A program made the position numbers and the translations under genes. The notes under the pieces are model-generated. The model was not told the DNA's origin. It was given only the letters and a program-made list of their open reading frames with translations, and did no database searches. DNA of 35,654 nucleotides, taken from an uncultured Schlesneria sp. (GTDB lineage: Bacteria; Planctomycetota; Planctomycetia; Planctomycetales; Planctomycetaceae). This document shows positions 1 through 2,036 of this stretch, piece after piece (positions within the stretch are counted from its first letter, which is position 1; each line of letters opens with the position of its first letter). The stretch is taken from contig CAIOKO010000051.1 in assembly GCA_903858935.1 (NCBI GenBank), positions 1 to 35,654 on the forward strand. Reading direction: 5' to 3'.

Positions 1-88
1 CCTTCGGCCAATAGGCCGCCGGTTGATTCCGCTGCCGTTCGATCGCCTGCTGCCGAGCCTCTTCCCGTGACGAAAATCGTTGAACCAT
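1..88 (-). CDS. Partial gene running off the left edge, unknown product
   Basis: An open minus-strand frame begins with ATG at 88 and stays open for 29 codons to the window edge. A run of five G lies about 8 nt upstream of the ATG as a plausible ribosome binding site, and a promoter-like sequence lies further upstream (134-161). The visible peptide starts MVQRFSSREEARQQ and continues with a charged, Gln/Arg-rich, probably helical stretch ending in YWPK. I do not recognise the family. The rest of the gene lies outside the window, so neither length nor domain can be judged. Confidence 0.5.
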   Translation of the reverse strand, partial: MVQRFSSREEARQQAIERQRNQPAAYWPK

Positions 89-133
89 CTGAAAACCCCC
101 TTGTCGAAATAAAAACACAAACACACGACAAGA

Positions 134-161
134 AATATACAGCAACGACAAGATATGTCAA
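134..161 (-). promoter_or_regulatory. Putative sigma70-type promoter with repeated ACGACA words
   Basis: On the minus strand, TTGACA (156-161) is followed by a 16-nt spacer and TATATT (134-139), which would start transcription about 40 nt before the ATG at 88. The word ACGACA occurs three times on the plus strand around it (125-130, 145-150, 171-176). The first two copies lie in a 20-bp-spaced direct repeat that continues as AAGA(A/T)AT. This suggests a regulator binding over the promoter. The promoter is read from consensus; the regulator is inference. Confidence 0.4.
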
Positions 162-232
162 CACAAAAACACGACATAGACTCTTGACGCTTGGAAGATG
201 TTTCTGGGAATCATCGATTTTGAAGGCAAGAA

Positions 233-306
233 TGGGACTGATGGGACTGTATGACGACGATCTTTCCGCTTTTGTCCCATAGGTCCCATTCGTCCCATCA
301 GTCCCA
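233..306. repeat. Left TGGGAC/GTCCCA array, 9-bp period
   Basis: Two TGGGAC units (233, 242) are followed after a 26-nt loop region by four GTCCCA units (274, 283, 292, 301), all spaced exactly 9 bp. The two halves are complementary, so the block can form a hairpin. It ends 29 nt beyond the stop codon of the four-helix-bundle gene. The loop region begins GTATGACG, and the loop, including TTTTGTCCCAT, resembles that of the array at 951-1043. Confidence 0.85.
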
Positions 307-335
307 TGAAATCGAACCCCCAAAACCATCATCCG

Positions 336-911
336 CTAATTCGGTCCATCGGGCTTCTTGTTCCGCTGCTTTAAGCGGGCCCTGGTCATTCTTTCGCGCA
401 GGCCACCTTCTTTGACGAAGTCCTGTTCTAACCTGCGAAGCTGCTGGTCCAGTAAAAAATTCGTCTGGTGAATCAGACAGATCGCGATGTTGGCCACCAC
501 CTCTGCCGACCGGGTTTCGCAGAATTCGCGGTATGATTCGTACGTAATTGGCGTTTGCTGGCCCATCGTGCGGACGTATTGGGCTTCCCTGGAATTTTTG
601 TCCCACTGCTTCAAATCACGGACTCGAAGGAAGTCTTCGTAATCGATTAATAATTCTTCCTGACTGGCTCGGGCGACATTGGTCAGTTTGATTTCGGTTT
701 CTTTTGATGTGCCCGATGCTTGGCTTCCTTCGACGATGTTTTGTTTGCCTGATCGGGCCGCCTGGATCATCTGGTCGACGGTTCGATCACCCTTGCTCAA
801 AAACCGCTGGCAGAATCGAAATGTCAGGTCGTAGACAACTTCGGCTTTCTGGTAGGACAGCAGGTCTTTGTATTGCCCATGCACGAGGATGAAGCCGGGT
901 TCGTCGGGCAT
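336..911 (-). CDS. Four-helix-bundle protein with suffix domain (S23/bAvd-like)
   Basis: This 191-residue protein matches the four-helix-bundle family related to the S23 proteins of 23S rRNA intervening sequences and to the accessory variability protein of diversity-generating retroelements. Family-typical words include DLLSYQKA near residue 16, QMIQAARSGKQNIVEG near 47-62 and ASQEELLIDYEDF near 82-94. The C-terminal part (about 134-180, with ICLIHQTNFLLDQQLRRLE and EGG) matches the suffix domain found after such bundles. A GGGG box lies 7-8 nt before the ATG. It is an orphan: no reverse transcriptase, variable target or rRNA gene is seen nearby. Self-complementary TGGGAC arrays bracket it at 29 nt and 39 nt. 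The molecular role of orphan members is not known to me; nucleic-acid binding as an oligomer is a family-based guess. Confidence 0.88.
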   Translation of the reverse strand: MPDEPGFILVHGQYKDLLSYQKAEVVYDLTFRFCQRFLSKGDRTVDQMIQAARSGKQNIVEGSQASGTSKETEIKLTNVARASQEELLIDYEDFLRVRDLKQWDKNSREAQYVRTMGQQTPITYESYREFCETRSAEVVANIAICLIHQTNFLLDQQLRRLEQDFVKEGGLRERMTRARLKQRNKKPDGPN

Positions 912-950
912 TGTTTCGCCCCTTTTCTTTGATCGAAGAAGAAGAAAGAA

Positions 951-1043
951 TGGGACTTTATGGGACCGATGGGACTTATGGGACGGTATGACGCGGAACG
1001 TCCTGATTTTGTCCCATGGGTCCTATTTGTCCCATCAGTCCCA
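951..1043. repeat. Right TGGGAC/GTCCCA array, 9-bp period
   Basis: Four TGGGAC units start at 951, 961, 970 and 979; three of the spacings are 9 bp or one off. They are followed by a loop region and by GTCCCA units at 1011, 1029 and 1038, with a degenerate GTCCTA at 1020, all in 9-bp register. The block has the same orientation as the 233-306 array and shares GGTATGACG and TTTTGTCCCAT in the loop, so the two are direct copies of a hairpin-forming element flanking the four-helix-bundle gene. A further isolated GTCCCA lies at 1087. Confidence 0.85.
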
Positions 1044-1187
1044 TTCGGTTCCAGTGGACACTGATTTTACCGACTTCGCGCTGTCAGTCCCATTAAACCC
1101 AAAGTTGGATTCTTACCTGAAATCTGACGCTGCCCGGATCACACATTGTTCAACGCGAGAACGATTGCCCTATTCTGAACCCATCGT

Positions 1188-1241: not shown

Positions 1242-1424
1242 AATTCTTCATCAATCCTTCATCATTCCGTAAGGCTCTGATTGTTGCTGAGTGATCGTCC
1301 TGCAGACTACAATGCCCACGCGGTTGGCGATTGCATGATTTGATTCTGCTGGTGTTAAACGCAATTCGCCACTGTGATGCACGTGACGCCCCAAACTTGT
1401 CCAGTGCGGAGGAGCACAGGCGAG

Positions 1425-2036
1425 ATGATTGCAGCACACAGTCCGGCGATCCAGTCCAGTGTTCTGGCACTGAACCGCCATTACCTACCGATCCATGTTC
1501 TCTCGGTCACCCGTGCGTTCTGCCTCCTCTATAAAGGGGCCGCCGAAGTCATCTCCGTCGACGATGGAACTTTTCATTCGTATGACTTTGGAAACTGGCT
1601 GGAAGTTGGCCTGCTGAAACTGGAACTGGATGACGCTCAGGATGCCGACTGGATTCGAGCCGTCAATTTCGAAATTCAGGTTCCCCGAATTATCCGACTG
1701 CTTCGATATGACCGCATGCCCCGCAACGGCGTGAAATTCAACCGCCGGAATATTTTCCTCCGCGATGAAAACCGCTGCCAGTATTGTGGTAAACGGTTCG
1801 GACTTCACAGCCTGAGCCTTGACCATGTCATGCCGAAAAGTCGTGGTGGGCCAACGACTTGGGAAAATATTGTCTGCTGTTGCCTGGACTGTAATGTGCG
1901 AAAAGGGGGCCGAACTCCTTACGAAGCGAACATGAAATTGATGAAAGCCCCGCATAAACCGGCCCGCAACCCCTTACTGTTCCACCATTTGAACAGCCGA
2001 AAATACGAATGCTGGCGAACGTTTTTGAACGAATGA
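1425..2036 (+). CDS. HNH endonuclease family protein
   Basis: This protein of 203 residues carries a complete HNH nuclease module. CQYC (118-121) and CLDC (153-156) are two zinc knuckle pairs. DHVMPKSRGG (133-142) holds the general-base histidine, and WEN (146-148) with N157 completes the fold. The N-terminal 110 residues are a conserved extension of unknown role found in stand-alone HNH proteins of this type. The ATG at 1425 was chosen over one at 1374 because GGAGGA lies 11 nt upstream and the protein then begins at the usual MIAAHSP-type N-terminus. It does not sit next to a restriction methyltransferase or phage genes, so its target is unknown. It is transcribed alone, 110 nt before hldE. 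Confidence 0.87.
   Translation: MIAAHSPAIQSSVLALNRHYLPIHVLSVTRAFCLLYKGAAEVISVDDGTFHSYDFGNWLEVGLLKLELDDAQDADWIRAVNFEIQVPRIIRLLRYDRMPRNGVKFNRRNIFLRDENRCQYCGKRFGLHSLSLDHVMPKSRGGPTTWENIVCCCLDCNVRKGGRTPYEANMKLMKAPHKPARNPLLFHHLNSRKYECWRTFLNE

Follow-up and report, generated by a model that had tools for sequence, protein, structure and literature searches.

In a 35,654-nt stretch of DNA from an uncultured Schlesneria sp. (the window), a single small gene encoding an S23-type four-helix-bundle suffix protein lies between two short palindromic arrays, and arrays of the same family are dispersed over the genome. The association of this gene family with such arrays is well supported and recurs in several phyla. 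These observations suggest, with a probability that we put at roughly 55%, a repeat system with two components that behaves in the manner of REPIN/RAYT and has a partner protein lacking a recognisable transposase. Its first component would be the scattered arrays, built of 7-base units plus two variable bases, several per arm, and able to form hairpins; the second would be a single cognate S23-type suffix-bundle gene beside or between arrays. The system is likely to be mobile, and its protein may bind or spread the arrays.

The gene and its two arrays

The original prediction described the gene as boxed by two blocks of the same orientation, each with TGGGAC units facing GTCCCA units at a period of about 9 bp around a common loop. 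The gene is boxed in this way, at the distances given in Table 1, and the unit positions agree. TGGGAC occurs at 233 and 242 in array 1, facing GTCCCA at 274, 283, 292 and 301; array 2 has TGGGAC at 951, 961, 970 and 979, and GTCCCA at 1011, 1029 and 1038 with a degenerate GTCCTA at 1020. Unit spacing in both arrays is 9 bp except for one 10-bp step (951 to 961), and the unit can be written as seven bases (ATGGGAC) plus NN, repeated with period 9 in palindromic arms. The predicted extent, 233-1043, stands as a segment, but its exact right end is 1044. The two arrays are direct repeats of each other (84% over 76 nt) and have the loop GTATGACG...TTTTGTCCCAT in common. A single extra GTCCCA lies outside them, at 1087.

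Table 1. Positions of the suffix-bundle gene, its arrays and adjoining features in the window
Feature	Position	Strand	Description
Four-helix-bundle suffix protein gene, TIGR02436-like N part plus TIGR04258 suffix	336..911	-	191 aa; family profiles, ORF, AlphaFold model
Suffix domain TIGR04258	360..506	-	residues 136-184; profile match
Linker TYESYREF, bundle-suffix junction	522..545	-	degenerate form of in-frame period-9 array; coordinates counted by hand
Array 1	232..307		2 ATGGGAC units, loop, 4 GTCCCAT units; hairpin; 28 nt past stop codon
Array 2	950..1044		4 ATGGGAC units, loop, 3 GTCCCAT units and 1 degenerate unit; hairpin; about 38-39 nt upstream of start codon
End of separate multi-copy repeat, including array 1	1..312		copies at starts of contigs C137, C144 and C130
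HNH gene, neighbour, outside element	1374..2036	+	also in relatives without the gene at the locus

On the plus strand, array 1 has a predicted folding energy of -35.6 kcal/mol (z -5.0) and array 2 of -62.2 kcal/mol (z -9.1) relative to dinucleotide shuffles; the corresponding minus-strand z-scores are -3.9 and -7.4. A CRISPR array was ruled out: the arrays consist of 7-base units with 2-base gaps and inverted arms, not of repeats with equal unique spacers. The HNH gene was considered as a part of the element and dropped, since homologues of it, found in 12 other genomes of the genus, occur also where the suffix gene is absent from the locus. Between positions 1188 and 1241 the window contains a perfect 27-bp tandem duplication, and the sequence around it recurs at other loci of the genus (L126, L015).

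The encoded protein is a member of the TIGR04258 'four helix bundle suffix' family (86.7 bits, cut-off 40) and has a weak match to TIGR02436 (27.1 bits, cut-off 24); its score against Pfam PF05635, the 23S rRNA IVS protein, is 25.9 bits, under the gathering score of 33.8. Besides four-helix-bundle families, its sole match in Pfam and NCBIfam (to E 1) was one weak hypothetical-protein model; neither these databases nor PHROGs and PADLOC, the last two returning no match, connect it with a family of nucleases, transposases or reverse transcriptases. A PDB sequence search gave just three chance-level matches, phage sequences gave none, and plasmids gave one (Prevotella nigrescens, 46%). The AlphaFold model (pLDDT 88.7, pTM 0.82) has the S23-family four-helix bundles 2gsc (E 0.049, target TM 0.79) and 2rld among its nearest PDB folds, with no fold match at E 0.001 or better. 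A topoisomerase-type zinc ribbon was found in three of four relatives scanned, which were picked by eye, and exceeded the cut-off in two. According to PMC4990558, the S23 protein of X. campestris is a homopentameric toroid, and S23 proteins have no known function.

A dispersed repeat family

The motif ATGGGACNNATGGGAC has 45 matches (18 + 27) in the window's genome (7.93 Mb, 280 contigs) and none (0 + 0) in the reversed control. By our grouping these matches represent about 21 places, most of them without the gene, which is single-copy in this genome. Among genomes of the genus, the number of matches ranges from 0 to 80. All but one of 26 palindromic arrays are predicted hairpins with z below -3. 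The two bases between units are nonrandom: of 100 counted, 82 were TT, TG, GA, CT or CG. No GTAG or CGTC tag is fixed in the 8 bases on either side of 26 palindromes, and no clean target duplication was found around a dispersed array.

Array 1 also forms the end of a separate multi-copy repeat spanning window positions 1-312, with copies of about 87% identity over 341 and 331 nt (C137, C144) and 77% over 181 nt (C130). This repeat carries the start of a 49-aa reading frame that has no Pfam match.

Orthologous arrays compared in two or three of the four genomes G000, G001, G004 and G005 keep their flanks and differ in units and spacer bases. At another locus (L110), the same four genomes have an array, and in G014 and G007 the matches on either side are separated by just 35 and 58 bp. 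In G001, the array behind the gene is present three times in steps of about 140 bp, the third copy being weaker (L251:2262-2627).

Gene and arrays within the genus

Among 40 relatives, the gene is found in 5 genomes, every one of which belongs to the 10 that carry the motif (Fisher p about 4e-4, computed by hand with kinship ignored). Gene remnants were sought in six genomes only; the gene or its remnant adjoins arrays in all six genus genomes that have either. The gene is present in G000, G001, G003 and G011, internally deleted in G004 (residues 1-25 and 123-191 matched; 80 motif matches) and reduced in G005 to a remnant with a stop (residues 3-72 matched; 34 motif matches). Five motif-bearing genomes among the 40 relatives have no match to the suffix family. 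Thus, arrays persist without a working gene.

The gene occupies different locations in congeners: its neighbours in G000 and G004 differ from those in G001, and both differ from those in G011. At the HNH locus, G000 has array, gene and array; G004 has arrays and the internally deleted gene; and G001 has an array at the place of array 2, with the gene and array 1 absent and another gene directly upstream. Array-only and array-gene-array states therefore occur at one locus. No array cluster was found in the 1.6 kb upstream of the HNH gene in G005, G002, G003, G006, G007 or G014. The original prediction proposed looking in relatives for an empty site that lacks the whole segment. G001 shows the array-only state; G005 is array-free but not a clean empty site, because it aligns for just about 130 nt upstream, with other DNA beyond.

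Arrays near the gene in wider relatives

At least 576 relatives were confirmed on GTDB contigs, and the closest 80 among the matches listed were kept. The titles of these best 80 of at least 576 include Planctomycetes, Verrucomicrobia, Bacteroidetes, Acidobacteria, Deltaproteobacteria, Chloroflexi and others; in a sample of the phylum, the family is present in 30 of 392 genomes. Arrays were counted strictly, as three exact hexamers in register at lag 9 within 400 bp of the gene. Among the best 80 of at least 576 relatives, such triples are found near the gene at 21 loci and in the distant flanks, with 2.9 times the bases, at 2; other lags (7-24) give 0-5 loci near the gene, and a lenient cluster count gives 32 near versus 5 far. 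Thus, arrays flank suffix genes preferentially, as the original prediction had expected, and are not equally dense away from them. Its other proviso, that orthologues might lack arrays, holds in part: 48 of the 80 (best of at least 576) lack a cluster near the gene by the lenient count as well, some flanks being cut by contig ends.

When all 4-mers were compared at lags 7-15, the top pair was GGAC at lag 9 (18 near versus 4 far). Lag-9 hexamer repeats occur in 17 of 34 suffix loci, five of them from the genus, versus 1 of 34 in simple shuffles. The plain-bundle control comprised 29 TIGR02436 loci from the 40 relatives (L310, a suffix gene, was left out); lag-9 triples occur in one of these, not at the gene, and are no commoner than at other lags, lag 7 being found in 8. 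Chance or artefact as a source of the arrays was rejected by the reversed-motif, other-lag and far-flank, and plain-bundle controls.

Dispersal beyond the gene was surveyed with RGGAC triples in 24 genomes, divided by whether an array near the gene was called by the strict or the lenient count (L196 lenient, L171 strict). Genome-wide, at least 15 matches and more than in the reversed control were found in 7 of 14 genomes with near arrays and at least 15 matches in 0 of 10 without them, where L168 has 10 versus 0 and the others have 0-2. A clear excess is missing in the other 7 of the 14, including G428, with 24 matches versus 107 in the control. Thiocystis violacea DSM 208 (L200) likewise has the gene with arrays close by and shows no excess over its genome. 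The strongest expansion seen is in G425, the genome of L156, with 329 period-9 RGGAC triples versus 2 in the control. A generic pattern of four GGAC units at lag 9 was also run over the phylum and dropped: it matched 100 of 392 genomes, reversed controls matched in many, and the listed matches mostly resemble Asp-rich coding repeats in GC-rich genomes, making the pattern too unspecific. Arrays beside the gene in G131, G309, G342 and G417 were noticed through it.

Repeat class, protein tree and linker

The repeats of the wider relatives fall into two motif classes, ATRGGAC and (N)AAGGAC, and the class co-varies with clade: it requires 2 changes on the protein tree versus 4-7 in 300 label shuffles. 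This tree is a quick one of 30 labelled rows, made with the linker excluded and having many weak forks; among 27 motif-called loci, three with ambiguous motifs and two without an intact single match were left out. The arrays listed for three genomes (G424/L146, G429/L193 and G430/L198) mostly carry the class that flanks the genome's own gene. Given the weak forks, kinship rather than function may be the easier explanation of the arrays. The co-variation fits the suggestion that the array is the nucleic-acid target of the protein, which the original prediction had raised and which may apply.

In many relatives, the linker between bundle and suffix is itself an in-frame period-9 array (TYxTYxTY), as in L204 (TAT AGG TCT GAT AGG TCT TAT GAG ACT TAT AGG ACC TAT), and long linker inserts are present in L080, L084, L087 and L184. 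Over 68 genes, lag-9 identity in the linker test is 0.366 versus 0.288, and linker codon use leans in the direction that a DNA-level origin predicts (AGG 21/147 versus 73/1130; TAT 81/118 versus 194/439), all without correction for kinship. These figures are no more than suggestive of an origin of the arrays in the gene's own linker.

Possible signs of insertion and gene neighbourhood

In 11 further loci, array sequence aligns directly on both sides of the gene, and the direct copies include the loop in at least L078, L156, L194, L200, L205 and L211; flanks under 40 nt were skipped, and one row (L195) was dropped as a slicing artefact. In L139 (49 nt), L158 (125 nt) and L162 (66 nt), a stretch of extra flanking DNA recurs on either side of the gene at 86-94% identity. 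No near array was called in L158; in L162, the repeated stretch is the 3' end of the upstream ORF.

A survey of 122 of 149 neighbouring ORFs, cut to 330 aa, from the loci of the best 80 of at least 576 relatives found type I restriction specificity (10) and N6 methylase (8) to be the commonest Pfam families. Suffix genes recurrently lie within or beside type I restriction-modification genes, according to these counts and, by eye, in L162 and L190. Positions 1660-2540 of L086 contain a CRISPR-like array adjoining a broken suffix gene (by eye); its repeat contains AATCTACGACAGTAGAAATTT and is presumably Cas12a-like.

A second gene family with arrays

G000 (L099) has an insert of about 860 bp that contains a match to the GxxExxY family TIGR04256 and is missing from the orthologous locus of G001 (L106). 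At L099:1525-2384, the GxxExxY gene has inverted arrays of CTTCGTT plus NN, the same 7+2 build with another heptamer. Among 30 GxxExxY loci, 6 have CACGAAG-type lag-9 pairs at each end of the gene; lag-9 triples of any motif occur in 8, and in five of these they are CACGAAG beside the gene. GxxExxY genes with inverted period-9 arrays of CACGAAG plus NN were seen in L315, L317, L319, L320, L339 and L340. Like the suffix loci, these have one small gene with inverted period-9 arrays of 7+2-base units at its borders; they differ in protein family, in heptamer and in having arrays at only 6 of 30 loci, and the clear cases have arrays directly adjoining the gene in the manner of terminal inverted repeats.

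Comparison with known systems

RAYTs are REP-associated tyrosine transposases, and REP/REPIN-RAYT systems, as far as described in the accessible parts of three papers (PMC2817692, PMC3116915, PMC3733652), resemble the present one in having dispersed palindromic extragenic repeats, mostly between tandem and convergent genes, and a gene that is flanked by cognate repeats and co-varies with their class. The window's gene is likewise flanked by copies of a dispersed repeat, and repeat and gene appear to have co-evolved, judging from the two motif classes over 30 rows. The differences concern both components: the protein here is an S23-type four-helix bundle with no match to a transposase family, the Y1 (HUH) transposase included, and the repeats are rows of 7+2-base period-9 units rather than one palindrome of 20-40 bp. 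The GTAG or CGTC tag that marks one end of REP repeats is likewise not a fixed feature beside the 26 palindromes inspected here.

With S23/23S rRNA IVS and plain bundle proteins (PF05635, TIGR02436), the window protein shares the bundle fold and core motif; it differs in its suffix domain, and the window has no rRNA. The available part of PMC4990558 describes the Coxiella intervening sequence as a small element in which terminal inverted repeats enclose one S23-type gene, a likeness to the present arrangement. No description of this gene-array system was found among the open-licence papers listed; the repeats themselves may have been mentioned earlier, and the terms sought for it are absent from the accessible part of the RepRanger paper (PMC12306157).

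Proposed mechanism and competing explanations

The original prediction treated the gene and its two arrays as one unit that moves or is maintained together. Gene and arrays do belong together, as indicated by the near/far excess, the absence of arrays near plain bundles, the differing gene neighbours beside which arrays are still present, and the array-only state of G001; they are not confined to one unit, because arrays occur in about 21 places and array 1 is also common to the separate repeat over window 1-312. In the two-component system, a protein oligomer would read successive equal 7-base sites along single-stranded DNA or RNA and would thereby keep or spread the arrays. The gene would move by recombination between arrays, which would leave direct array copies on both of its sides.

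A possible though doubtful alternative makes the gene a passenger: the arrays would owe their origin and spread to host processes (hairpin slippage, template switching) or to an enzyme whose gene lies elsewhere, and the flanking arrays would let the gene move by homologous recombination with dispersed arrays. The persistence of arrays where the gene is broken (G004, G005), the gain and loss of units at orthologous arrays, the direct-copy arrays flanking the gene, the array-only locus of G001 and the occurrence of arrays of the same build with a differently named gene family, GxxExxY, are all compatible with it. However, a mere passenger would not readily explain why the repeat class follows the protein tree or why the gene's own linker is array-like, and both observations weaken this explanation.

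Less probable still, the arrays may be transcribed hairpins, mostly 3' of genes, that are bound by the protein and set mRNA stability or termination, being kept rather than mobile. Their genomic setting agrees in part: 41 clusters with at least 3 exact units, from 44 loci in three genomes with ORFs called by a simple longest-frame rule, comprise 16 tandem, 12 convergent and 2 divergent cases, 5 that were unplaced and 6 that lie inside a long ORF. The tandem and convergent positions, the strong predicted folds and the zinc ribbons of relatives, which suggest nucleic-acid binding, speak for such a regulon. The six clusters inside long ORFs do not, nor do the turnover of array content between congeners, the differing gene neighbours in G000, G001 and G011, or the range of 0 to 80 motif matches within one genus.

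The accessory protein bAvd of diversity-generating retroelements also has a four-helix-bundle fold. That the locus is a 23S rRNA intervening-sequence element or part of such a retroelement is nevertheless very improbable, the common four-helix-bundle superfamily being set against the absence of any Rfam match at gathering score in the window (rRNA included), next genes that are protein-coding, hairpins that flank the gene with no rRNA helix enclosing it, and the absence of a reverse transcriptase both from the two neighbouring genes scanned in the window and from the 25 commonest of 116 Pfam families in the 122 neighbour ORFs.

The two-component system, which remains the preferred reading, may tentatively be extended to an undescribed general class of small proteins (S23-type suffix bundle; GxxExxY), each keeping its own inverted 7+2-base arrays. 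Oligomers of these proteins would read single strands, one unit per subunit, and would spread or maintain the arrays and their own gene without a transposase, the array occurring also in frame as the TYxTYxTY linker.

The role of S23 proteins is unsettled, as far as the available part of PMC4990558 indicates, and one S23-type branch here gains a genomic partner and a candidate ligand. These observations suggest that, in bacteria, a gene tending a population of dispersed palindromes need not encode a relative of transposases.
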